A stretch of 48,237 nt of DNA from Bacteroidales bacterium (GTDB lineage Bacteria > Bacteroidota > Bacteroidia > Bacteroidales > UBA932). The DNA lies in the NCBI GenBank assembly GCA_017473705.1, contig JAFUJQ010000013.1, forward strand, positions 1-48,237, written 5' to 3'. The notes under the pieces are model-generated. The model ran no database searches and was not told where the DNA came from. It worked only from the letters and a program-made list of their open reading frames with translations. This document shows, piece after piece, positions 3,348 to 40,921 of this stretch (positions within the stretch are counted from its first letter, which is position 1; every line of letters starts with the position of its first letter). Made by a program: the position numbers and the translations under genes.

Positions 3348-4172
3348 TCATCTGTTGTATATGTGTATGCTGTCCTGTGCAGAAGGAAGGTAGTTTATAC
3401 CCCACCAGCACATCTGCAGGCACGCAAAGGCAAAGATCAGAAGCAGACACTGCGCTGTCCTGGATCCTCTGCCCATTACTCTCAAATGTATATATAGAAC
3501 ATAGCAAAGCCATGTTATCAATGCCCATGTCTCCTTCGGATCCCAAGCCCAGTAGTGGCCCCAAGCGTCCTTCGCCCATAAGGCTCCGGAGAGCATCCCG
3601 AAGGTCAGGAATGCCGTTCCCAGATATACGAGCGTGTCTGCCGCACTCATTATATCCTTTCCCTTCCCGAAAAGTCCGGCCAGAGCCAGCAGGAAGGCAC
3701 ATCCAAGAAGCGAATATGAAAACATGTACACTGTGACATGCGGGATGAACCAGCCGCTCTGAAGCGCAGGCATCAGCGTCTGGTCATGTATCTCCGGACG
3801 AAGCACATTCAGTATCATGAACACACTCGCCAGGATTGCAGAGAATGACAATATCCATCTATATCTCCATCTGACATAGGTCAGAAGACCGGCAGTAAGC
3901 GCAAAGAACGAATACCATAGACGCGTCTCGCCCATAGTCCTGAGAGGCGGACGTTCCAATGACTCCCACAGTCCTGCGATGAAAGCAGCAAGAACGGCCA
4001 CCGAAAGCACAGACATGAATATCGATATTCTGCGGAAGCGGCGATAGCGCAGTGATGACGCAGACCAGTGGTCATTCGCGCATAGCGACACGACAGCCGC
4101 AGCAAATGCAAATGCTATTGCTGCTGACGCGAACCATATGAATATATCCCAAGTCACCATAGCACTAATCAT
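3348..4172 (-). CDS. ccsA: Cytochrome c biogenesis protein CcsA (WWD haem-handling)
   Basis: An integral membrane protein of 274 residues with about eight hydrophobic segments. The segment WGHYWAWDPKETWALITW is the tryptophan-rich WWD motif of the CcmC/CcmF/CcsA haem-handling family, which presents haem to apocytochromes on the periplasmic side. The frame is open further upstream, but that extension would overlap ResB by over 90 bases. I chose the ATG at 4172, which overlaps the end of resB by eight bases; an ATG four codons later (4160) is also possible. With ResB it forms a system II cytochrome c synthase, here next to a tri-haem peroxidase that is its likely client. Confidence 0.85.
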   Translation of the reverse strand: MISAMVTWDIFIWFASAAIAFAFAAAVVSLCANDHWSASSLRYRRFRRISIFMSVLSVAVLAAFIAGLWESLERPPLRTMGETRLWYSFFALTAGLLTYVRWRYRWILSFSAILASVFMILNVLRPEIHDQTLMPALQSGWFIPHVTVYMFSYSLLGCAFLLALAGLFGKGKDIMSAADTLVYLGTAFLTFGMLSGALWAKDAWGHYWAWDPKETWALITWLCYVLYIHLRVMGRGSRTAQCLLLIFAFACLQMCWWGINYLPSAQDSIHIYNR

Positions 4173-28138: not shown

Positions 28139-29308
28139 TCAAGCATATGATTCCAATATGATGCAGCGTTCCTTTGACGCTGTCACCGACCAGTCCAGTT
28201 GGGACGGAACTTCCTGACGGACTTCACCTTGGAGCATCTGGACTACTCTGTCGGCCAAGGCGTCTGCAAAGGTGGAGCAGAGCGGGAAGACGTTTTCTGC
28301 ACCGATCACTTCAGGGATGCCTCCGACGTCAGAGCCGGCAGCGTTTGCGCCACAGCGCAGAGCCTCGGCGCAGACCAGCGGGAGACCTTCGTTCAGACTC
28401 GGGAGCACAAGGACATCAGTGCTGTTCATGAATGCCGGCATTTCCTCAGAACCAAGATTGCCAAGGAAGTTCACGTCGAGCCCGGCTGCAGACATGTCAG
28501 CTTCGACAGCCGGACGCAGTTTGCCATCTCCGGCAATCAGGAACTTGACACTTCCGTCAAAACGCTCACTTATCTTCCTGAAAAGAGGAGCCAGAACGCG
28601 GACATTCTTGACTGAAACAAGACTTCCAGCAAATGACACTGACTTATCTCCTTCTGTCACACCGAATCTCTTACGCGCTGCTGCACGCTCAGCGTCAGGA
28701 AATCTGACGAACGAGTCTGATACTCCATTATATAAAACATCCTTAGGCGCATCTGCAACGATCTTGTCGGAGAAGTCCTTCAACGCCTTGCTGACAAAGA
28801 AGTTGCACGAGGCATGCTTCATTATCTTACGCGTATCATCCAACACCATCGGCAGGCGCCACGGGTGCGTATGGACATCTGACCCGTGCCAGTTTGCAAA
28901 GAAGATTGTACCATAGATGCAATGGGCCATATAGGCAATGTATGAACCTGTGAACGAATGGCCTATGAGCACATCATAGCCCTCGAGCCTATCCACTACA
29001 CGTCTCACTAAACTCTTGAATAAGAGCGGTCTGCAATGCATCTTCTCAACCAGCACATGATCCATGATGGAGAACCTGTACCACATCATTTCATACCTGA
29101 TGCCGTCTATCGTCACCTGGTCGACAGACGGTGTCTCCGGAGTGTGACGGACCTTGCGGGTAAAGGCATTGTCCCTGCTGTGGATGCAATATGCATCAAT
29201 GGTGCAGCCGCCTTCGGCAAGCAGATGACGCACTCGCTCATGTACAGCATTGAAGAGCCCCTTCCTGTCGAACGGACTGCTCTCGAATATGACAGCTATC
29301 TTCATCAT
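28139..29308 (-). CDS. Glycosyltransferase family 4 (GT-B)
   Basis: A 389-residue glycosyltransferase of GT-B fold. The N-terminal half opens with MMKIAVIFESSPFDRKG and contains a HGSD segment near residue 145. The C-terminal half holds SFAGSLVSVKNVRVL, the FLIAGDGKLR strand and the nucleotide-sugar binding E-x7-E segment SLNEGLPLVCAEAL. It transfers a sugar from a nucleotide or lipid donor during surface polysaccharide assembly. It is the last gene of the polysaccharide operon and overlaps the GT2 gene by four bases. Confidence 0.9.
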   Translation of the reverse strand: MMKIAVIFESSPFDRKGLFNAVHERVRHLLAEGGCTIDAYCIHSRDNAFTRKVRHTPETPSVDQVTIDGIRYEMMWYRFSIMDHVLVEKMHCRPLLFKSLVRRVVDRLEGYDVLIGHSFTGSYIAYMAHCIYGTIFFANWHGSDVHTHPWRLPMVLDDTRKIMKHASCNFFVSKALKDFSDKIVADAPKDVLYNGVSDSFVRFPDAERAAARKRFGVTEGDKSVSFAGSLVSVKNVRVLAPLFRKISERFDGSVKFLIAGDGKLRPAVEADMSAAGLDVNFLGNLGSEEMPAFMNSTDVLVLPSLNEGLPLVCAEALRCGANAAGSDVGGIPEVIGAENVFPLCSTFADALADRVVQMLQGEVRQEVPSQLDWSVTASKERCIILESYA

Positions 29309-30330
29309 TTCCTCTTGCGGAATATAGTTGCGAAAAACGAGGTCACCTTATATACCTTGACAGTAAAGCCAGGCTTGCCTATCTTATATAGGATCAGATT
29401 AAAGACCTGTCCTGCCCTGATTGAGAATATCCCAAGGCCGGGATCGGCATCCATATATTCATATAACAGGGCAATATTGTCCATGGTGAGCATATCCGTG
29501 CTTCTTCTCGCATAAAGGTTCAGCAGACGACATATATACCTGCCTATCACATCCTTACGATATAGCGTCAGGACGCTCTTTGTATTAGGGCAGCGTGCCC
29601 TCAAAGATTCTGTCACCTCGACATACAGGGGCAGGAATATCTGCAGCTGCTGAATGTGCCTGTCAGAGGAAATGTCACTGCCCAGAGAGCCCGGACGCAT
29701 GTAATATCCATAGACAGCACCCGAGAAAGTCATTATGGACGAGCATCTTGACATGACCGTAAAGACGAAAAGCTTGTCTTCGGCATAGTGGAGACTCTCG
29801 TTAAATCTGACGTCGCCTATGGCCTTGCGCTTGAAAAGCTTGGCCCATGGAGCGTCAAGCATCTCGCAGTTGCGCCTGATGTTGTCCTGGAAGAACAGCG
29901 GATAGTCCGCTCCCCTATAGGTCTTTGTCTGAGCCGGACGCACGTCCTTTACCGGAATGTTTCCCACAAAGGCCGCATATCCGCCGACTATCATGTCATC
30001 GCCCGCCACGGCATCCATCATGTCGTCCAGAGCGAACGGAAGCAGAGCGTCATCTGAGTCCAGGAACATGATGTATTCGCCCTTGGCAAGCTCCAGACCT
30101 GCATTTCGGGCAGAGCTTACTCCCCCGTTGGGCTTATGTATAGTCCTGAAACGAGGATCGGTAGAGGAATATCTGTCGCATATCAGCGGAGAGGAATCCG
30201 TGCTTCCGTCATCCACGAGGATGACCTCATATGAAGAGAAATCCTGATCAAGGACGCTGTGTATGCATCTGTCAAGATATTCCTCCGCATTGTACACGGG
30301 GATAATGATACTTAATCTGCTCTTATCCAT
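29305..30330 (-). CDS. Glycosyltransferase family 2 (GT-A)
   Basis: A 341-residue protein with a classical GT2 start, LSIIIPVYNAEEYLDRCIHS, then VDDGSTDSS (UDP-binding Asp residues) and MFLDSDD, the D-x-D metal site. The C-terminal 140 residues are helical and may bind the acceptor. It adds a sugar to a growing lipid-linked glycan at the cytoplasmic face. The open frame continues upstream into the previous gene; ATG at 30330 (MDKSRLS) gives the normal distance to the first strand and lies four bases after the pyruvyltransferase stop. Confidence 0.92.
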   Translation of the reverse strand: MDKSRLSIIIPVYNAEEYLDRCIHSVLDQDFSSYEVILVDDGSTDSSPLICDRYSSTDPRFRTIHKPNGGVSSARNAGLELAKGEYIMFLDSDDALLPFALDDMMDAVAGDDMIVGGYAAFVGNIPVKDVRPAQTKTYRGADYPLFFQDNIRRNCEMLDAPWAKLFKRKAIGDVRFNESLHYAEDKLFVFTVMSRCSSIMTFSGAVYGYYMRPGSLGSDISSDRHIQQLQIFLPLYVEVTESLRARCPNTKSVLTLYRKDVIGRYICRLLNLYARRSTDMLTMDNIALLYEYMDADPGLGIFSIRAGQVFNLILYKIGKPGFTVKVYKVTSFFATIFRKRK

Positions 30331-30334
30331 AACT

Positions 30335-31471
30335 TTATCCTTTGCGGAGAGCCTCACTGAGGAAGCTTCCGGATTTGATTCTTTCTTCTGCCAGCACAGC
30401 ATCGACGGCGTCCCAGTCAGGCTGTGACAGGAAAAACTCTCCGTCATCATCCGGATCAATGCCGTGCACCAGCCTCATGTCCAGGCCAAACCGGGACAGC
30501 AGAGACTGCAGCCTCGCCATTCCTCTTATGGAATTTCCTACAGCCACAAAAGGCTTATGAAACAGGATCGACAGCACGCATCCGTGGAACGAATCCGTAA
30601 CCACAAATCCCGCATCTGCAAAACCTGCCAGCCATTCCTCCAGAGGCGGCACCACACGCTCTACCAAAGGACGGGTACTGTCCGTCACCGGCGAAAGGTC
30701 ATGGACCGTAAGTCCTGAAACATGCGACATGAAATCAAGGACATTATCCTTCTCCTTTGACTTGTCCAGAATATATGTCACAAGCTTGCCTTCAGCCGGA
30801 TGTATCTTAACGGAAGCTGCCATAGCCGCATATACAGAAGCATCAACAAGCATGACTGGATCAAGCACCTGCACGGCATTCTCACAGTCAAACCACTCCT
30901 GGCACATCTGCACTCCGACATCCTCGCGGACTGACACTCCGTTGAACTTCTCCAGCAGAGACGCGCACTCCTGCACCTGCATGTATTCATATTCGAGCTG
31001 GTCCGTGCCGAAGGATGCGGCGTAGGCCACTCTCAGCACATTCCAGTCTCTGGCAAAATCCAGGAAAGCATCCTCTATACGCCCGAAATAACGCGGACGC
31101 CACACCTGATCGCTTCCGACTATGAATGCGTCGTATTCTCCTTCCCGGATGTCCTTGTATCTCTTAATGACACGAGGTGCTATCAGTTCGTCGATGAACC
31201 TCTGAGTATTGGCAGATAGAGCCGGAAACTCCTTGCGGAATCTTAGCTCGCGGAACACTTCGGGGCCTGCTGCACCCTTGGTCATACGCTGCACGGCCCT
31301 CTTTGCATAGACAAAAGGAGCCTTCCACAGGGGCGGCAGCGGCATCTTGACCTTTCGGTCCAGAACCGTAACCTGATGTCCCATGGACTCCAGATATGTC
31401 TTCAGCGCATAGGCCTGAAGAATGCCTCCGTAATTGGTGTGCAGAGGCAATGTCACGACAGCAATCTTCAT
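30335..31471 (-). CDS. Polysaccharide pyruvyl transferase family protein
   Basis: A 378-residue protein of the PS_pyruv_trans family (CsaB/WcaK/ExoV type). It starts with MKIAVVTLPLHTNYGGILQA, typical of the family's first strand and N-Y-G-G loop, and has FIVGSDQVWRP and, near the C-terminus, VTDSFHGCVLSILF, the conserved D-S-F-H-G segment. The enzymes add a ketal-linked pyruvate from phosphoenolpyruvate to a sugar. In Bacteroidota it is regularly next to an FrhB-like iron-sulfur protein, as here. It overlaps that gene by four bases. Confidence 0.9.
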   Translation of the reverse strand: MKIAVVTLPLHTNYGGILQAYALKTYLESMGHQVTVLDRKVKMPLPPLWKAPFVYAKRAVQRMTKGAAGPEVFRELRFRKEFPALSANTQRFIDELIAPRVIKRYKDIREGEYDAFIVGSDQVWRPRYFGRIEDAFLDFARDWNVLRVAYAASFGTDQLEYEYMQVQECASLLEKFNGVSVREDVGVQMCQEWFDCENAVQVLDPVMLVDASVYAAMAASVKIHPAEGKLVTYILDKSKEKDNVLDFMSHVSGLTVHDLSPVTDSTRPLVERVVPPLEEWLAGFADAGFVVTDSFHGCVLSILFHKPFVAVGNSIRGMARLQSLLSRFGLDMRLVHGIDPDDDGEFFLSQPDWDAVDAVLAEERIKSGSFLSEALRKG

Positions 31472-32607
31472 CTTACAATCCTCTTCTTCATGTCGGAAAG
31501 GAACCTGCGCACCTTTCTGTATATTCTCTGATGCATTGGCCTTCTGACAACGAATCCTTTCATATATGCAATCAGGTCGGACGCACTGTGAACTCCCTTG
31601 AAGAACTCTTCGCGCCTCTCCGGAACGGCAGCAGGGTCAGAATATCCTCCATTATCACGCATAGCAGCCTCCGCGCTCACAGCGACAGACCGCATGCTCA
31701 CAGAGTCCAGCAGTGCCTTGCCCTTTGCCGTATTGACTAAAACAGCAGACGCTCCCCTGTCGTCATTGAACGCTGGAGCCGCCTCAGCAACGCTCCACAG
31801 GTCGGCAAGCGTCAGGTCTGAAGCCTTCCTGCCTGCCCTGAAAGGACATTTATAACAAGATGGCCTCAACGACATGTCCTGAACGAACAAGGCCATGTAT
31901 GGATCGTCAACATAATCCACACTTACATCGTCATGTCTGAAGCAGTAATGTCTCCAGCTGCGGGATTTGTCCCTGAAGGACAGTGACCTGATCCTTCCTC
32001 CGCTTCGGGTCTCGAGCGCCTTCACATACTTCTCCCAAAGTCCCGGACTCGGGACACCATGGCATGCAAAATCTATCGTCAGCAGCCCTTCTGTATTGCC
32101 CCTCAGATAGTTCTTCAAGCCCGCAACCTGGCATGGCGTGCCTGTGAACAGCACTTTCATTCCATCTTCCAGATATTGCCTGACGTCTTCAAAAGCAGAA
32201 TACAGGTCACTCTGGGCATATTTCGAGCCTCTCATCGGCTCAATCCCCGGCAATTCCGAAGCTTCGGCATGCGCGACCTTATAGTCACTCTCAAAGACAG
32301 CTCCGAAGACAATGCCTCCCTCCTCAATCACAGGCTTTGCAAGCGCCGGGAACACTCCTCCGGAAGAGGATCCGGCAACATGTTCCTCAGACCTCGCAGC
32401 CAGGACCACGACTGGAGCCGAAACTGCAGGAGGATTCAGCATAGGACATACTTTCTCACACTTGCCGCAGCCGATGCACAAGTCCGGATTGGCTACCGGA
32501 TAGTCAAAGCCCTCGCGGTCACGGCGCATGACTATGCACTGCGCGGGACACGCAGTGGCGCAGGCAGTGCAGCCGCAGCATAGAGACTTATCCGATATCC
32601 TTATCAT
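31468..32607 (-). CDS. FrhB/FdhB-like iron-sulfur protein of polysaccharide cluster
   Basis: A 379-residue protein. Two ferredoxin-type 4Fe-4S sites lie at the N-terminus: CCGCTACATACP (about 9-20) and CIGCGKCEKVCP (about 43-54). The rest is like the C-terminal domain of F420-dehydrogenase subunit beta, with further Cys residues in TGTPCQVAGL, FACHG and CYKCPF. F420 itself is not expected in Bacteroidota; members beside pyruvyltransferases in glycan clusters probably carry out a redox step on a sugar or donor, but the reaction is not established. It overlaps the flippase gene by ATGA. Confidence 0.87.
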   Translation of the reverse strand: MIRISDKSLCCGCTACATACPAQCIVMRRDREGFDYPVANPDLCIGCGKCEKVCPMLNPPAVSAPVVVLAARSEEHVAGSSSGGVFPALAKPVIEEGGIVFGAVFESDYKVAHAEASELPGIEPMRGSKYAQSDLYSAFEDVRQYLEDGMKVLFTGTPCQVAGLKNYLRGNTEGLLTIDFACHGVPSPGLWEKYVKALETRSGGRIRSLSFRDKSRSWRHYCFRHDDVSVDYVDDPYMALFVQDMSLRPSCYKCPFRAGRKASDLTLADLWSVAEAAPAFNDDRGASAVLVNTAKGKALLDSVSMRSVAVSAEAAMRDNGGYSDPAAVPERREEFFKGVHSASDLIAYMKGFVVRRPMHQRIYRKVRRFLSDMKKRIVR

Positions 32608-34136
32608 TTCCTGACAAATTTCTCTTTAATCTTGTTTACCAGCCACTTGCGTTCATCACCCCTCAGACCGAGAGCAATGATCACGAACATAGACCACAGC
32701 ACGCACACCGATGCGCTGACCAGGAAGCCCACAAATCCAGAAGGCTTGACAGCCTCGAGGATCAGCGGCACGACCAGCGAGCCGCATACCACCTTGAAGA
32801 GGACACTGAAGTACACATCCTCAAGGAATGGCAGCACTGGGAATCCCGTCGCCTTGCTGAGCATCAGCAGACGCGCCCACATGCATATCTGTGATATTAT
32901 GATGGCTACGATTACAGTCACTTCAGGGATAGCTCCCATCCTGAGGCATACATACGACACAGGAAGGTTCAGGAGCTGGATGCCGCCCACTACAAGCTGA
33001 TAGTTGCGTATGTTTCCTGTCGCGAGCATCGCCGTTATCATAGGATTCGAGAGCGACTCGCTCAGAGCGAATATGAGGAAGAGCTGCACGAAGAGCGATG
33101 AATGCTCAGGCACCTCCTTGAGCCATATGGACAGCAGATAATCTGCATTGAAGATTACCGGAAGGGCAATGATGAAAAGAAGGAAGAAAGACATTCTGGA
33201 TGACCTTCTCACCAGACTGAACATATACTCCTTATCCCCAGCCGCATACGACTTTGTGATCTGCGGATTCACAGCCGTCATGAAGTTGGTCACAAAGCCC
33301 TGCACAGCTCCGTTCAGCTGCACGGCAACGCCTCTGGCAGCATTGACGGCCGGACCGTAAAACAGGTTTACCAGTATGTTTCCTCCGTGGTCCCTCAACA
33401 CTCCCGATGTAACTCCTATGAAGTTCCATCCCGCAAAAGAGAACATCTCCCTGATCAGAGGCCTGTCAAAGACAGGACGGTATCTGCATTCTTCGAAATG
33501 CAGACGGCAATATAGGCCATAGGCCAGACGCACGATCAGTACGACACCGGCCATCAGGGCCGCATAATATATAAGTCTGTCTATAGGAGAATGCAGTATG
33601 AGGAATGCCACGCCTAGCCTCAGAAGGCCGTCAAGGATGCCTATGTATGCGTAAGCGGACATATGTTCGTGCGCTGTGATGGAGGCCATCTGCGGCACGC
33701 TCATGAGGTTTATGACGAATGCCAGGAGCGAGAAATGCAGCACCCATCGTGCTGCAGGAATCCTCGACGGGTCTATGGTCATCTTGTTGTCTATGAACCA
33801 CAGGCCGAGGGGCTCTGCGAGGAGGACCACGACGGCCGCAAGGATCAGCTGGATGGTCACCGCTGTAGAATATACTTTACCAAGCTGCGCGTCAGTCCCC
33901 TTGCCCATCTCAAAAGTTATGAATCTGGAGACCGCGGAATTCAGGGCTCCGGATATTATGGTGAACATGGAAACGACACCTCCAACGACATTGTATATGC
34001 CGAAATCGTCCTCCCCGAGTGCTCCGAGGACTACACGCGAAGTGTAAAGTCCGACGAGCATGAGGACAAGCATCCTGACATATAGCATCAGTGTGTTCCT
34101 GGCTATCTTTGTTCCCCTATGTCCATAGTCATCCAT
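32604..34136 (-). CDS. Polysaccharide flippase (Wzx/PST-like, MATE superfamily)
   Basis: A 510-residue membrane protein with about twelve to fourteen hydrophobic segments. It opens with GTKIARNTLMLYVRMLVLML, a typical first helix of the oligosaccharide flippase family, and it heads an operon of glycan enzymes, so it probably moves lipid-linked sugar units across the inner membrane. A TATATTTG box (34143-34150, minus strand) ends six bases before the ATG, leaving almost no leader. No polymerase (Wzy) gene is seen in the cluster, so the unit may be used singly or be polymerised by a gene elsewhere. Confidence 0.9.
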   Translation of the reverse strand: MDDYGHRGTKIARNTLMLYVRMLVLMLVGLYTSRVVLGALGEDDFGIYNVVGGVVSMFTIISGALNSAVSRFITFEMGKGTDAQLGKVYSTAVTIQLILAAVVVLLAEPLGLWFIDNKMTIDPSRIPAARWVLHFSLLAFVINLMSVPQMASITAHEHMSAYAYIGILDGLLRLGVAFLILHSPIDRLIYYAALMAGVVLIVRLAYGLYCRLHFEECRYRPVFDRPLIREMFSFAGWNFIGVTSGVLRDHGGNILVNLFYGPAVNAARGVAVQLNGAVQGFVTNFMTAVNPQITKSYAAGDKEYMFSLVRRSSRMSFFLLFIIALPVIFNADYLLSIWLKEVPEHSSLFVQLFLIFALSESLSNPMITAMLATGNIRNYQLVVGGIQLLNLPVSYVCLRMGAIPEVTVIVAIIISQICMWARLLMLSKATGFPVLPFLEDVYFSVLFKVVCGSLVVPLILEAVKPSGFVGFLVSASVCVLWSMFVIIALGLRGDERKWLVNKIKEKFVRK

Positions 34137-34568: not shown

Positions 34569-34576
34569 GAAAAGAA

Positions 34577-34607
34577 AAAGAGACTCATCTGAGTCTCTTT
34601 ATTTTTT
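34577..34607. terminator. Bidirectional terminator, Dabb gene and two-TM gene
   Basis: AAAGAGACTCA (34577-34587) pairs with TGAGTCTCTTT (34590-34600), followed by ATTTTTTT on the plus strand and a T/C-rich run on the minus strand. The hairpin overlaps the stop codon of the minus-strand gene at 34599, so both convergent genes end here. Confidence 0.88.
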
Positions 34608-35822
34608 TCTTCTTACAACTATCGCCGCCATGCAGATGATGGAGATCAGCGCCATGGCGCAGGCTCTGATGCCTGTAGCTGTTCCTATGTTGGTGCTGAA
34701 TTCGAAGACTCCGTCCATCAGACAGGCAAAGTCCCATATTGCAGAGAATAATGTCAGGCAGGTGATCACTCCGAGGAAGAGGTTCATCTTGTCTCCCGTC
34801 TCCGCTTCCCTGCGGGCATTCTCACGGTTGATCATATCTGCAATCTTGGCAGTTTCCTGCTCGACATCGAGTCCCTTTTCCATTGAATCCATCAGAATCT
34901 CAGGAAGGAAGTTGTATGAAACCTTTGGGAAAGTGTAGTCTTTCTCGAATGTCGTCAGATCCTTGCGGACATCCGAAACATCCTTGATCTCGCCACGGAA
35001 GTCCCCGTTGATTCGGAAAAGGAAGAACTTGCGGTACAGCGCATACATATACATCTTGCCGAAATATTCCTTGTTCCAGAACTCAAGCATATTGTCAGGC
35101 ACGTCATGAGCGACGATTGTATATGTATCAAGAAGAGACAGCGACTTCCAGTTGTTGAAGACTGACACACGGCTTCCGGACATTATGCTTTCATAATATT
35201 CCTTAGAAAAGCCCTTCGGATCATTCTCCTTATATACCATCAAGGTGCCACCACCGTATAAAAGCACATCATAACCTGCATCATCAGCAGGTCTTTCCCC
35301 ACAGAGCAGCGTGTGGAAGATCTTAAGCTTGTTTCCGCATTCCATGAGGGCACGGAAATCTCCCGAATTGCCGGCAGCCTTGTTCAACGCGACCAGAGGA
35401 TCAAGAGCCAGGGTGATATAGTCCTTGACTGCATCCTTGTTGAGACTGCATACGCTTCGCATCATGAAGAGAGCGTCAAGCATGTCCTGAACCTGCTGCG
35501 ACTGCTGGCTGACCCTGACCGAATACATCACGATACCGAAAGGGAAAAGATATGCCTGAAGTTCATCAAGGTGCACCTCATGCTCCCTGCCGTCCCTCAA
35601 TGTAAGCGAAAAGTCCAGATCATAAGCATGACTGAAGACCTTTACATCAGACATCATGAATTCTGCAAACTCCGGATAATAGAAATCCTTAGCCCACGAA
35701 ATTTCATTGTCATCATATGCGACAGGAGTCCAGAAGTCACCTTGAGAAGCGATGATCGCTGACGCATTTCCGGCCTTTGATGAAAAATAGCCGCAAAGGA
35801 AGGCCGTATCTTTATACTGCAT
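34599..35822 (-). CDS. Unknown protein: soluble region plus two C-terminal TM segments
   Basis: A 407-residue protein without a recognisable family. Residues 1 to about 335 are soluble and mixed alpha/beta. The tail has GDKMNLFLGVITCLTLFSAI, the first of two hydrophobic segments (about 345-368), a loop, a second segment (about 383-402) and a basic end (VVRRKK). The layout, including Met-Asn at the start of the first TM segment, is like the C-terminus of the 611-residue protein at 5429-7264. It is divergent from the HEPN-NACHT gene, 89 bases apart. A TAATTTTG box lies at 35839-35846. It could be a membrane effector, but also an unrelated neighbour. Confidence 0.75.
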   Translation of the reverse strand: MQYKDTAFLCGYFSSKAGNASAIIASQGDFWTPVAYDDNEISWAKDFYYPEFAEFMMSDVKVFSHAYDLDFSLTLRDGREHEVHLDELQAYLFPFGIVMYSVRVSQQSQQVQDMLDALFMMRSVCSLNKDAVKDYITLALDPLVALNKAAGNSGDFRALMECGNKLKIFHTLLCGERPADDAGYDVLLYGGGTLMVYKENDPKGFSKEYYESIMSGSRVSVFNNWKSLSLLDTYTIVAHDVPDNMLEFWNKEYFGKMYMYALYRKFFLFRINGDFRGEIKDVSDVRKDLTTFEKDYTFPKVSYNFLPEILMDSMEKGLDVEQETAKIADMINRENARREAETGDKMNLFLGVITCLTLFSAIWDFACLMDGVFEFSTNIGTATGIRACAMALISIICMAAIVVRRKK

Positions 35823-35838
35823 ACATCTTAATTTTTCA

Positions 35839-35886
35839 CAAAATTAATCAATCTGACCCATAACACGCAATTTTATTGTAAATTTG
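35839..35886. promoter_or_regulatory. Divergent promoters between two-TM gene and HEPN-NACHT gene
   Basis: The 89-base gap contains TAATTTTG on the minus strand (35839-35846) and TAAATTTG on the plus strand (35879-35886), both matching TAnnTTTG. The distance between them allows a shared regulator site, though I see no clear palindrome. Confidence 0.55.
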
Positions 35887-35911
35887 TTTGTTACAGCTTA
35901 AAACAACCACT

Positions 35912-38900
35912 ATGGGAACTGAAATCCTAGCCAAAGGCACAGCATCGCTTCCATACTCGCTTGCACATCCGCTGCAGGGATTCAAGGCAAATGCAGAAAA
36001 GAAGAACTGGCACAGTGCCATGAACTATATGCTCGACTTCTTCGAGACCTCCTGCCAATTCCTCTCTATAGTGGTGATGGGTCTCCTCAAAGCCGATGGC
36101 GAAGAACTGAAAAACGATCCTGCCATTATCAGGGCAGTGGGCAAAATAGACAGCAAGAGACCTTTGTCATTCGGAGACTGGGCAAACGACATCCTGACGC
36201 CGCTGACCACGCTGGCAGCATCAAGACTGCCTGGCAACGCCTTCGTACAGTCGCTCTCAAAAGTGATATCCCAGAAGAAGCATATCATCCTCGGCAGAAA
36301 GGGCGAGCAGAGCATAGTCAAGATCAGAAACGACTACAAGGGACACGGCACCACCCTGTCACAGGACATATACAAGGACGTGGTGCTGACACTCGAAGGC
36401 AGACTGCTCGAATTCATAGAGGCGCTCATGCCGCTCTCGCAGATGCAGTTCATGGCAGCTGTGCCGGGAGGCGGCACGCTGCTGCTGAACGGACACTGTC
36501 CGGAAGCGGCACCGGCCGACGGCACGTTGGAGGAAGGGCACTACTACTTCAGCTATGACGGAAAGCTCACTGATCTCTATCCTCTTGCATATTGCAATGA
36601 GCTGGGACACATATATATATTCCAGACGCTCAAGGACGAGAGCACTGCGCATATTTCATCAAACGAGGAGGCGGTTTCGCTGACGACCAGCGAGCGCAAC
36701 GCCGAATTCGATGCGTGGCTGCAGGAGCTCATGCCGTCGTTCGACATAAGCAAGATCATCAATTGGGAGCAGTGGAAAGGTCTCCTGCATGAAAACACAT
36801 CAGCATTCCTGACAAAGCTGTATGCGGAGAAGAAATACAACCGGGAACTGTTCGTAGAGAGAGAAAGCCTCACCAGGGAGTTCGACGGATTCCTCGGATC
36901 CGAATCATGCATCTTTCCTCTCCTGGGCGAAGCCGGACAGGGCAAGACCACGCAGCTATGCTACTGGACTGAGACTTTCTCGGAAACTGACAAAGGCGTC
37001 ATGATATTCTCCGGCTCCGAATTCGCTGACATTACTCTGGAAAACAAACTGAAGTACTCATTCGGATGGGCCATGCATAAGCCTGTGGCCGGTCTTGTAC
37101 AGTCGCTGGCGAATGCCGCCGAGTCAAGAGGGAAAGAAGTGCTCATATTAATCGACGCGATAAACGAGTGCATAGAATATCCAGGTCTTGCCGATGACGC
37201 AGATGGTCCTCTGATGCTTTACAGAGACCTTTACAAGATATTCATAGAGCCCGGATACAGACGCTTCAAGATACTCTTTACCTGTCGCAACTACACATGG
37301 AAGAACCTCCTCATGCCGGAGACAGCCAAGCAGGACCAATCGCTCTTCTACAACTCCGGAGAAGAGGAGAACACTGCAGTCAAGGGCTTCACTGACAGTG
37401 AAGTGAAGACTGCATATCACATATATGGAGACCTCTTCCAGATGAAGACACCGTTCGACCTTCTGCCGCGCGGCATCACCATCAGGATGAAGGATCCGCT
37501 CGTGCTCAAGATGTCATGCACAAACTATCTCGGCCAGAATTTCCCAGAGGCCATGAGGGAATTCACATCTCTGGCGCTCTTCCATAAGATGGTGCAGGAC
37601 ATTTCCGTATCATATGCAGGAAACAGACAGGTTGAGATACTCCGGGAAATCTCCGGACACATTCTCGATTCATACTTGTCCGGAGATGCGAAAGACTCCA
37701 TCACGATGACCGATCTTCAGGCTGCATCCGAGGATCCGGAATCGCCTCTGCACAGGGCCTCAGCCCTCATCTTCAAGAAGGACGGCTACAGCGTGGCATT
37801 CGCCGAACTTCTCAACAAGCCCGAGAGACCGATCCTAAGGCTGGTCGACAACGAGAAGATACAGTTCATCTACGAGCGATTCCTCGAGTATATGCTCGCG
37901 CTTCTCTACTTTGAAAGGAACGCGCAGGGAGCAGACAACATCACTTGCCAGACTTTCGTAGACACGATTGAGAGGGCGACGGCTAACGAAGTCTTCATGG
38001 GTGCCATGCGCAATGTGCTGATAATGGACTACCTGGCGACAGGTAAGTCTGACACGATCATAGCATTGTCCAACCTTGAGGACAGCGGCTTCGAGATCAT
38101 GTCACTCGCCACAGACGTCATGAACATCATGGTCCGCGAAAACTATGAGACAGAGATATTCTCCCTGCTCGGAGAACTTATAGAAAGGACCGGAGAGGAA
38201 TGCACTGCAATCATTTCTGAATACAACGCCGTCACGAAGAAAATCGAATCCAACAAGGCGGACGAAGCGACAATCGCAAGGCACAAAGAGCTTTCGCCTG
38301 TCATAGCTCCGCTGATCAGACAGCGCTCCCTCGCCTCGGTGACACTCCTCAATGGCGTCCTGCTCACAGACTACCATAACGAAGGAATATACTCGCAGGA
38401 TCCGTTCGCGCTGCTTTGGAAGCTGCTTCTCGACCCTGTCACTGAAGTCAAGAACGACGTATGCATGTATGCATATTACGTCTCCAACAAGAAGACAACC
38501 CTCAGCGGCACGCCTCTCAGGGAAAACCTCTCCGAGCAGATCGTGAACAGGATGTACAAGGAGATATGCACGACTCCGCTTCTCGCGATCCCGTTCGGGG
38601 AACGCAGAAGGAAGTCGATAATGAGCGACCTGGAGGTGGGCACAAGACTCAACGTACTGCTGATCATAGACGCCCTCATTTCCGGAAAGGAAGAAGACAG
38701 GGCAAGAGTAGGAGGAATGCTTGGGGAGACCATAGAAGTGTTCAGGCACCTGACTGCGAACTACTCGCTCATCAGGATGCTGCTTCCTTTCTTCCAGATG
38801 GTCCTCAGGAAGCAGCTGACCTTCCAGTCCGACTATGTAAACAATGTGATAGAATACCAGACATACTGGGAGGACTCTGTCATACCGCTCAAGAGCGAGG

Positions 38901-39955
38901 ACGGAACCTGGTGCCGCGAAGACCTCAAGACCGCAATGCAGTTCATCTTCCAGCATTCATGTTACTTCGCTCCGGACGCAAGATACAGCAAGGAAGATGC
39001 ACCGGACTTCGGGCCGTTCCAGCACAAGGTGATCTCAGCCTACCGCACGGGAGACAGTTTCACATACTTCGCCTTCGAGAGGATCCTCATCATCATGGGC
39101 ATATGCTCATGGGACAAGGTCTACCCTATCCTCAAAAACTTCAGGGAAGGAGGCATCAGGGATACAGAGTGGTTCGACTACTCGCAGATGTCGCTGATAT
39201 ATGTCCTATACCAGTTAGGACTTAAGATGGAAAATTATCCCGAGTATGCCTGGGAGATGCTTTCCGAGTGGTGCGAAGAATGGACACTCAAGTGCAAGGG
39301 ATACTTCAAGGGCAGAAACAGCCATAAGGCAAACCCTCGCCAGCTTTACAAAAGGAACGTAATGACATGGTATGCAATGGTATGGGCGCACCGCCATGGC
39401 GATGTACAGGATCCGGACTGCGCCAATGCACCATTGTTCAGGAGGCTCCTGGACGACGCGATAGAGAAACGTGACACCGAACTTCTCGTACACCTGATCG
39501 AGAACATTTCCGAGCTCGTGACAGACTCGGGATACATACATACAGCCCTTGACCTGCTCCTTTCCGTAATGAGCAGGATAGACAGCAAGGAGATGCTCGG
39601 AGAGTTCAGCGAAGACATCGTAACATTCATCGGCAAGGTACTCGGCACTGCTAAGAACTATTTCCCGGACGAGGTGAACACCTTCCTGAAGAAGGACCTC
39701 TCTGGCCTTCCGTTCCCGGGAATTCCTAAGTACAAGGACGAGCTGCTGAGCTACAATCCTGGCGGAGAAAGGCTCTCCGACCTGTTCACCCACAAGTTCG
39801 GCAACTTCCTCATCTGGTCGCTGATACACGAGGAGGCGGTGGACGAATTCGCGTACGAGGCTATGTGCCTCGCGCCTGAGTCGAAGGACAGTTTCGAGTG
39901 GTTCGACAAAGTGGTAAGGGTTTTGTTCAGGCACCTCTTTAAAGTGAAATTATGA
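35912..39955 (+). CDS. HEPN-NACHT (STAND) NTPase with long helical C-terminus
   Basis: A 1347-residue cytoplasmic protein. Residues 1-180 are helical and hold RNDYKGH (139-145), an R-N-x4-H motif of the Rx4-6H type that marks HEPN ribonucleases. A linker with DGKLTDLYPLAY follows (about 216-227). The NTPase domain has Walker A GEAGQGKT (339-346), Walker B VLILIDAINE with Asp415, and FKILFTCRNY as a sensor; VKGFTDSEVKTAYHIYG looks like the G-F motif after the NTPase in NACHT proteins. Residues from about 560 to 1347 appear as helical repeats, the usual sensor of STAND proteins. Some NACHT proteins are known anti-phage factors; that role here is inferred. ATG at 35912 was chosen because a longer frame would need TTG. 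Confidence 0.82.
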   Translation: MGTEILAKGTASLPYSLAHPLQGFKANAEKKNWHSAMNYMLDFFETSCQFLSIVVMGLLKADGEELKNDPAIIRAVGKIDSKRPLSFGDWANDILTPLTTLAASRLPGNAFVQSLSKVISQKKHIILGRKGEQSIVKIRNDYKGHGTTLSQDIYKDVVLTLEGRLLEFIEALMPLSQMQFMAAVPGGGTLLLNGHCPEAAPADGTLEEGHYYFSYDGKLTDLYPLAYCNELGHIYIFQTLKDESTAHISSNEEAVSLTTSERNAEFDAWLQELMPSFDISKIINWEQWKGLLHENTSAFLTKLYAEKKYNRELFVERESLTREFDGFLGSESCIFPLLGEAGQGKTTQLCYWTETFSETDKGVMIFSGSEFADITLENKLKYSFGWAMHKPVAGLVQSLANAAESRGKEVLILIDAINECIEYPGLADDADGPLMLYRDLYKIFIEPGYRRFKILFTCRNYTWKNLLMPETAKQDQSLFYNSGEEENTAVKGFTDSEVKTAYHIYGDLFQMKTPFDLLPRGITIRMKDPLVLKMSCTNYLGQNFPEAMREFTSLALFHKMVQDISVSYAGNRQVEILREISGHILDSYLSGDAKDSITMTDLQAASEDPESPLHRASALIFKKDGYSVAFAELLNKPERPILRLVDNEKIQFIYERFLEYMLALLYFERNAQGADNITCQTFVDTIERATANEVFMGAMRNVLIMDYLATGKSDTIIALSNLEDSGFEIMSLATDVMNIMVRENYETEIFSLLGELIERTGEECTAIISEYNAVTKKIESNKADEATIARHKELSPVIAPLIRQRSLASVTLLNGVLLTDYHNEGIYSQDPFALLWKLLLDPVTEVKNDVCMYAYYVSNKKTTLSGTPLRENLSEQIVNRMYKEICTTPLLAIPFGERRRKSIMSDLEVGTRLNVLLIIDALISGKEEDRARVGGMLGETIEVFRHLTANYSLIRMLLPFFQMVLRKQLTFQSDYVNNVIEYQTYWEDSVIPLKSEDGTWCREDLKTAMQFIFQHSCYFAPDARYSKEDAPDFGPFQHKVISAYRTGDSFTYFAFERILIIMGICSWDKVYPILKNFREGGIRDTEWFDYSQMSLIYVLYQLGLKMENYPEYAWEMLSEWCEEWTLKCKGYFKGRNSHKANPRQLYKRNVMTWYAMVWAHRHGDVQDPDCANAPLFRRLLDDAIEKRDTELLVHLIENISELVTDSGYIHTALDLLLSVMSRIDSKEMLGEFSEDIVTFIGKVLGTAKNYFPDEVNTFLKKDLSGLPFPGIPKYKDELLSYNPGGERLSDLFTHKFGNFLIWSLIHEEAVDEFAYEAMCLAPESKDSFEWFDKVVRVLFRHLFKVKL

Positions 39956-40644
39956 GAACAGTAGCACATAGAGGAGGGGCCGGTCTCGGATGCGAGAACA
40001 CCCTCTCATGCATAGAGATGGGACTGTCATGCAGCAGAACGGACATGGTCGAGGTCGACGTACACCTGACAAAGGATGGAGAAGTCGTGGTCTGCCATGA
40101 CCCGGATGTGGACAGGACTACTGACGGGAAGGGAATGATAGAAGATCTGACCCTTCAGGAGATCAAGGCACTTCATATAAAGAACCGCGACGGAAAGACC
40201 ACTACCGACAAGATTCCGACGCTTAGAGAGGTCCTGACGCTCATAGGTTCGCGAGCAGAGGTTCTTCTTGAAATCAAAAGGATAGACGACAGGGATGACG
40301 GTCTTGAAAAGGCATGTCTGGACATAATCCATGAGTGCGGAGCATACGGCAGGGTGACAGTCCAGTCGTTCAACGACATCGTGCTCGAGAGATTTCACGC
40401 CATGGATCCTTCAATAAGACTTGAGAAGCTTCTCTTCGTACGCCCTTTCTGCTGGAAGGGAGTTGACCAGAAGCCATATATAGCATCATACAACATATTC
40501 CGCCTCGGATTGGTGACAAGACGCTTTGTGGAGAAGATGCATGCCAGAGGGAAAGAAATAAAGGTCTGGACACTCCAGACCTCGAAACAGTTTTACGCTG
40601 ACAACGTAGACGGCATCATTACTGACCGTCCTGATCTTTTTTAG
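39952..40644 (+). CDS. Glycerophosphodiester phosphodiesterase
   Basis: A 230-residue protein of the GDPD family (UgpQ-like, TIM barrel). It starts with VAHRGGAGLGCENTL (catalytic His and Arg-Gly-Gly, then E-N-T), then EVDVHLTKDGEVVVCHDPDVDRTTD with the E-x-D metal ligands and second catalytic His, and ends with WTLQTSKQF and GIITDRPD. No signal peptide is seen, so it should act in the cytoplasm, cleaving glycerophosphodiesters to glycerol-3-phosphate and an alcohol. Its ATG overlaps the HEPN-NACHT stop (ATGA), so translation is coupled. Its 3' end overlaps the convergent small membrane protein gene by 26 bases. Confidence 0.93.
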   Translation: MRTVAHRGGAGLGCENTLSCIEMGLSCSRTDMVEVDVHLTKDGEVVVCHDPDVDRTTDGKGMIEDLTLQEIKALHIKNRDGKTTTDKIPTLREVLTLIGSRAEVLLEIKRIDDRDDGLEKACLDIIHECGAYGRVTVQSFNDIVLERFHAMDPSIRLEKLLFVRPFCWKGVDQKPYIASYNIFRLGLVTRRFVEKMHARGKEIKVWTLQTSKQFYADNVDGIITDRPDLF

Positions 40645-40921
40645 AGCGGCTGTCCACCCATAGCCAGAGGCGCCACATGAGCCAGCCCCAGGCGATGAAG
40701 AGCGCGACATGCACCCATACAGGTGTCTTTGCCTGATAGGCATCCTCCGGAAGGACCTGATCGAAGTTCGGTATGTCTACATAATAGTATGCTCCTCCAC
40801 CGAAGTCATAGCCTTCCACGAGTCCCATATGATTCCACATCACATATAGGGCACCAATAACTATAGTCACCGCCATTATGACGGTGACTATATTGAATAT
40901 CATCTTCTTACTTATTTTCAT
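40619..40921 (-). CDS. Small two-TM membrane protein next to YeiH-like transporter
   Basis: A 100-residue protein with two hydrophobic segments (about 8-28 and 67-87) and a short periplasmic loop between them containing FGGGAYYYVDIPNF. I do not know the family, but its coupling with the transporter gene (start overlapping the transporter's end by 14 bases) suggests an accessory subunit. An ATG six codons later (40903) would remove the overlap. Its 3' end overlaps the GDPD gene by 26 bases on the opposite strand, so the two mRNAs are antisense there. Confidence 0.75.
   Translation of the reverse strand: MKISKKMIFNIVTVIMAVTIVIGALYVMWNHMGLVEGYDFGGGAYYYVDIPNFDQVLPEDAYQAKTPVWVHVALFIAWGWLMWRLWLWVDSRSKKDQDGQ

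Follow-up and report, generated by a model that had tools for sequence, protein, structure and literature searches.

Bacterial proteins in which an N-terminal HEPN motif is fused to a STAND NTPase have already been reported, as single proteins (Anantharaman et al. 2013, PMC3710099), and because of the examples given in that survey the architecture is not new in itself. The CorA effector of type III CRISPR systems is reported to be a membrane protein gated by SAM-AMP (S-adenosyl methionine-AMP), and immunity through CorA requires a neighbouring hydrolase (PMC10600005, PMC12255297). A second ligand for part of the CorA family has been speculated on in a further paper (PMC11229360). Avs2 (AVAST type 2) and bNACHT, in turn, carry a NACHT-type NTPase inside a large three-part protein. 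Here, a locus with likenesses to these systems is described in a 48,237-nucleotide stretch of contig JAFUJQ010000013.1 from a Bacteroidales bacterium (GCA_017473705.1), hereafter the window. It encodes a large HEPN-NACHT receptor, a protein with two predicted transmembrane helices (TM2) and a glycerophosphodiester phosphodiesterase (GDPD). In contrast to the HEPN-STAND proteins, whose description in the main text of the 2013 survey includes neither CorA nor GDPD (PMC3710099), both kinds of partner are linked to the receptor here. Our overall reading, to which we give an even chance, is that the three genes form an accessory STAND-type anti-phage cassette with an RNase head, a CorA-like membrane effector and a modulating GDPD. 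The literature searched, the coverage of which left most subscription journals and bioRxiv outside, yielded no report of the three genes in combination, and the cassette may pair known defence parts in a new way.

Linkage and distribution of the three genes

A scan of GTDB genomes yielded 25 receptor loci, which together with the window and one locus from the same genus make a set of 27, falling into 18 clusters at 90% identity. Four further loci of the family (L003-L006), at which both TM2 and GDPD are also present, were left out of this count because they closely match L011, L012 and L025. By title, all 25 loci belong to Bacteroidales or to groups that are placed here in this order, and they include one of Phocaeicola plebeius DSM 17135 with all three genes (L023). 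The nearest named relative is the receptor of a Bacteroidales bacterium (L010), which is 93% identical to that of the window. All three genes occur together in 23 of the 27 loci. The GDPD gene follows the receptor gene in 26 loci, and TM2 is encoded at the receptor locus in 24, in three gene orders (19 upstream and divergent, one upstream and co-directional, four downstream and co-directional). At one of the three loci without it (L013, L028 and L031) the contig ends upstream of the receptor (L031), and the L028 genome encodes TM2 on another contig. The original prediction depended on these two neighbours being conserved beside homologues, and this conservation was observed.

Among 299 genomes of the family, the receptor is present in six and TM2 in seven, and all six receptor genomes are within the seven; the six are not independent, because four of them come from one genus with nearly equal scores. 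Together with the counts of TM2 and GDPD beside the receptor, this co-occurrence rules out chance neighbours. Furthermore, across 18 loci the three proteins diverge in parallel, their pairwise distances being correlated (r of 0.96, 0.92 and 0.90, none of 2000 permutations being as high), a correlation that shared descent alone could yield and for which the 18 loci include near relatives. TM2, receptor and GDPD form a conserved three-gene unit. This cassette is accessory, being present in few genomes of the family and missing from a syntenic site in a close relative. At one locus (L022, 11846-14882), two GDPD-like open reading frames (ORFs) lie around TM2, a possible duplication.

Sequence features and relatives of the three proteins

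In the receptor, the HEPN-type motif R139-x5-H145, the P-loop GEAGQGKT with K345, and D415 were located where the original prediction had placed them. In an alignment of 18 receptors that are 43-93% identical to the window protein, R139, N140, H145, most of the P-loop, D415 and E419 are invariant; the first three are invariant in 15 receptor N-termini as well, and a separate conservation listing gives R139, H145, K345 and D415 as conserved in 22 or more of 23 sequences. The Rx4-6H motif expected of HEPN RNases and the P-loop and Walker B residues expected of STAND/NACHT proteins (K345, D415 and E419) are thus found in all 18, and the conservation of R139 and H145 in relatives, on which the HEPN assignment had been staked, is borne out. 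The N-terminal block contains an additional invariant stretch, DxKRxLSFGDW. On the basis of the R139-x5-H145 motif, the receptor N-terminus is likely to be a HEPN RNase head.

NACHT is the best Pfam match of the window receptor at 18.2 bits, below the cut-off of 26.7, and is matched at E<=1 by 14 of the 18 family members. Avs2 profiles match the NACHT part in 17 of the 18, and in the window receptor the PADLOC Avs2 matches are restricted to about residues 294-574. As in Avs2 and bNACHT, a NACHT-type NTPase therefore lies inside a large three-part protein; in contrast to Avs2, the partner genes are different and a profile match to the Avs2 sensor part was not seen. Full Avs2 membership was ruled out by an NCBIfam Avs2 score of 25.2 bits against a cut-off of 1000. 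For the roughly 780 residues of helical repeats put forward in the original prediction, only weak TPR/PPR-like matches were obtained; residues 1051-1300 are among the best conserved, with a mean agreement of 0.61-0.75 per 50-residue block (0.68 for the P-loop block on the same scale). PDB sequence searches with the receptor and with TM2 gave no usable match.

The original prediction described TM2 as a two-TM protein. Hydropathy of the window protein agrees with this, revealing two hydrophobic stretches near the C-terminus (about residues 344-373 and 378-406), and TM2 is not anonymous beyond this, as it resembles the CRISPR CorA effector. The window protein has no Pfam match. PADLOC gives CorA on the TM2 of the window, and its CorA models match 13 and 12 of 20 TM2 members; because such a model also matches in 104 of 198 phylum genomes, mainly across the membrane end, this label carries little weight alone, and a CRISPR-type CorA profile was therefore built from seven proteins, including two whose annotated neighbours are Cmr genes (L080, the translation of which ends in undetermined letters, was left out). 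Comparison of an 18-row TM2 profile with these seven proteins in local mode gave a score of 41.4 (E 2.8e-4, probability 41%), against at most 22.8 for 30 column shuffles and 15.3 for the reversed profile. The global mode gave E 9.3e-7 and a probability of 84%, the column shuffles covering the local mode only. TM2 scored 35.5 against three CRISPR-type CorA proteins and 22.1 against three housekeeping ones, while comparison of the CRISPR-type with the housekeeping family gave 53.8, across the membrane end. With the score of 22.1 and no GMN motif among the TM2 family invariants, a housekeeping CorA transporter was rejected as the identity of TM2.

The effector of SAM-AMP type III-B CRISPR (PMC10600005) and TM2 share a soluble N-terminal part, two C-terminal membrane helices (for TM2, by hydropathy of the window protein) and a phosphodiesterase gene alongside, together with a probable remote, collinear similarity of their profiles. 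In contrast to the CRISPR system, no Cas gene was seen among the cassette genes, and the partner hydrolase, a GDPD that often carries a leader, is not NrN, DEDD or a lyase. The GRR and DDR pairs, the proposed SAM-AMP site, are invariant in the seven CorA rows, and the TM2 family invariants (R122, E161, G163, N164 and K165) gave no confident alignment to them. These profile comparisons make it probable that TM2 is remotely related to the CorA effector of SAM-AMP type III CRISPR, and TM2 probably acts as a CorA-type membrane effector. The PADLOC model PDC-M19A gave weak matches, with E 0.0011 at best, to 7 of the 20 TM2 members, and a search with this family retrieved other proteins and not the TM2 of the window. 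Cas10 (Pfam PF22335) was matched in none of 17 genomes, among which the expected positive, G450, was negative as well.

A phylum-wide search found TM2 in 2 of 395 genomes (G000 and G339), and distant TM2 copies without this receptor occur in G281 and G339. In G281 (L041, contig C19, 433-11410), the distant TM2 adjoins a 175-residue protein; about 5 kb away, a 1517-residue protein carries the motif R184-x4-H189 and matches NACHT weakly (15.8 bits), and a 1513-residue protein has an S1 domain. In G339 (L047, contig C1, 8837-10713), it overlaps the gene of a 173-residue protein, for which a Pfam search gave no match and which is homologous to the small protein of G281 (26% identity, E 1e-22). Because these distant copies occur beside other proteins, TM2 appears able to change partners. 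A 613-residue protein in another genome (L061, G377 contig C8, 757-2598) matches the PADLOC CorA model at E 8e-12, with a weak vWA match near its C-terminus, and is possibly another CorA-like effector outside CRISPR.

The third protein of the window carries a full-length Pfam GDPD domain (122.7 bits against a cut-off of 23.6), for which the nearest solved relative is 2pz0. H6, R7, E34, D36, H49, E107 and K109, which have catalytic roles in this family, are present in all 26 rows of the alignment. The N-termini differ, as read by eye from hydropathy and start codons: 15 of the 26 have a leader of at least 28 residues (signal-like, lipoprotein-like or an anchor), eight begin with a brief hydrophobic segment (13-17 residues) and are ambiguous, and three have no leader (window, L010 and L032). 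Per 90% cluster, these classes number 11, 4 and 2, L009 having no GDPD gene. The cytoplasmic location given in the original prediction fits the leaderless GDPD of the window and is exceptional across the loci. In a tree from which L128 and L131 were left out, a branch (support 91/96, with long branches flagged) separates the 26 GDPDs from five others, which come from G291, from G786, where the cassette is absent, and from the genome of the window. Unlike other GDPDs, those of the cassette branch apart from the five sampled, are coupled to a receptor and range at the N-terminus from no leader to a leader or anchor. A mention of gdpD in PMC10975372 was set aside as a precedent, since it concerns antibiotic resistance.

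Possible mechanism and alternative explanations

A possible mechanism can be proposed for the cassette, in which the NACHT-type STAND protein would sense infection through its long C-terminal part. The NTPase would bind and hydrolyse nucleoside triphosphate and then assemble, after which the N-terminal HEPN head could cleave RNA. TM2 may form a second effector arm at the inner membrane, depolarising or arresting the cell, and this arm could be modulated by the dedicated GDPD, which in many relatives appears to be located outside the cytoplasm. The earlier idea of RNA cleavage plus a membrane or lipid branch is thereby recast as an RNase-type head, a CorA-like membrane effector and an often exported GDPD. 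Inferred in this scheme are the sensing of phages, RNA cleavage by the receptor, an action of TM2 on the membrane, its link to the receptor and what the GDPD acts on; the proposal as a whole draws on the gene linkage, the correlated divergence, the invariant motifs and GDPD active-site residues, the Avs2 and CorA profile matches, the sporadic presence and the syntenic site that lacks the cassette. That the cassette serves anti-phage defence appears probable, and a modulating role of the GDPD could as well hold as not. More tentatively, and with less than even odds, CorA-type effectors could be plug-ins beyond CRISPR, one of which is driven by a HEPN-NACHT receptor and tuned across the membrane by an often exported GDPD; this would be a two-armed RNA and membrane type of STAND system absent from the papers found. 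If so, bacterial NLR-like receptors would be joined to the SAM-AMP/CorA arm of type III CRISPR, fields so far separate, and this would suggest that CorA-type effectors can respond to a trigger that Cas10 does not make. The cassette would also offer an independent comparison for why CorA immunity needs a neighbouring hydrolase. The idea is directly testable, as Phocaeicola plebeius DSM 17135, a type strain, has all three genes.

Several observations weigh against the two-armed proposal. TM2 does not adjoin the receptor in L013 and L028, a search of the L013 genome for TM2 found none, and the GDPD gene is absent from L009, so that neither partner is strictly required. Neither the 18 whole receptors (E<=1) nor five isolated N-termini (E<=5) matched a HEPN family in Pfam, and the HEPN assignment therefore rests on the motif. 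A 20-row TM2 profile, richer in near-copies and without L042 and the two outliers L041 and L047, reached a local score of only 32.4 against CorA (probability 8%, E 0.0043). No messenger-making enzyme is encoded within the cassette, and no relatives were found in viral contigs scanned with the TM2 and receptor profiles. Nearby defence genes had been suggested as a check, and no clear defence island emerged from the 121 ORFs scanned with PADLOC out of 146 neighbours selected: 65 families reached 1e-10, and the 25 of these among the matches listed, each found in 1-4 proteins, are for the most part models of helicases, ATPases and kinase-like proteins, to which in our judgement housekeeping enzymes could also score. 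The exceptional loci, together with the receptor's own HEPN-type motif and the report of HEPN-STAND proteins as single proteins (PMC3710099), would fit a receptor that is a self-sufficient defence, with a separable TM2 that anchors or restrains it at the membrane and a GDPD that limits membrane damage. However, TM2 recurs at the receptor locus across three gene orders and is encoded elsewhere in the L028 genome, and the L013 genome, at 1.6 Mb, may be incomplete; we consider such self-sufficiency unlikely, though not negligible.

A different function for the same parts would be that TM2 is opened by a small signal from the HEPN head, for example RNA ends, and that the GDPD destroys this signal in the way of NrN beside CorA. 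CorA beside a hydrolase is a published arrangement (PMC10600005, PMC12255297). The likeness of TM2 to CorA and the leaderless GDPDs of the window, L010 and L032 point the same way. However, more than half of the GDPDs have a leader or anchor and hence would lie away from a cytosolic signal; this exported form argues against simple destruction of a cytosolic messenger, although the leaderless form of the window could still accomplish it. Moreover, GDPD and NrN are different enzyme families, and we know of no signal-destroying GDPD activity of such a kind; we give this explanation a small probability. A role outside defence is scarcely more probable: in an envelope or lipid stress module, TM2 would be transporter-like, the GDPD would recycle lipids and the receptor would be a regulator. 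Many GDPDs have leaders, ordinary genes flank the cassette of the window with no clear island in the neighbour scan, and, besides the negative viral contigs, no relatives were found in plasmids, searched with the receptor and not TM2, or in phages, searched with TM2 and not the receptor. On the other hand, the sporadic presence, the Avs2-like NACHT part and the HEPN-type motif speak against a stress module, as does the closer score of TM2 to the CRISPR effector than to housekeeping CorA (three sequences each).

Cassette boundaries and genomic setting

The features of the cassette are collected in the table below. All three reading frames are open and positioned as the original prediction stated, the divergent gap and the ATGA coupling were confirmed, and the cassette boundaries obtained with blastn nearly coincide with its interval of 34599..40644. 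The receptor frame starts with ATG and is also open from a TTG eight codons upstream.

Features of the three-gene cassette in the window
Feature	Position	Strand	Remarks
TM2	34599-35822	-	407 residues; soluble N-terminal part followed by two hydrophobic stretches near the C-terminus; probably a distant relative of the CorA effector of CRISPR
TM2-receptor intergenic gap	35823-35911		89 bases between divergent genes; basis: sequence
Receptor	35912-39955	+	1347 residues; HEPN-motif N-terminus, NACHT-type NTPase, long C-terminal part
HEPN-type motif R139-x5-H145 (RNDYKGH)	36326-36346	+	R139, N140 and H145 invariant in 18 sequences and 15 N-termini
P-loop GEAGQGKT	36926-36949	+	Residues 339-346, with K345; G339 and A341-T346 invariant in 18 sequences
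Walker B type stretch DAINE	37154-37168	+	Residues 415-419; D415, A416, N418 and E419 invariant in 18 sequences
GDPD	39952-40644	+	230 residues; leaderless in the window; overlaps receptor stop (ATGA); Pfam GDPD 122.7 bits
Cassette extent	34572-40651		Stretch without counterpart at syntenic site L113 of genome G786 (blastn)

The source genome of the window comprises 2.35 Mb in 171 contigs and is 71% complete. In blastn against the syntenic site of the close relative G786, homology stops at 34571 (92% over 671 bases) and restarts at 40652. There, 731 other bases take the place of the cassette, flanked by a Dabb gene on one side and a small ORF and a PF03601 gene on the other. This site (L113) contains a 213-residue ORF (3353-3994) that by eye resembles a TetR-type regulator. 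In G782 and G809, Dabb adjoins TrpS, with 58-65 bases separating the matched parts, and at the sister locus L009 TM2 and the receptor, without GDPD, lie between Dabb and TrpS. A polysaccharide-type cluster lies to the left of the cassette in the window and ordinary genes to its right. On the left (28139-34136), glycosyltransferase genes and genes of FrhB and MatE type point to a cluster for a surface polysaccharide. Between Dabb and TM2, the sequence AGAGACTCATCTGAGTCTCTTTATTTTTTT (34572-34610) resembles an intrinsic terminator by eye.

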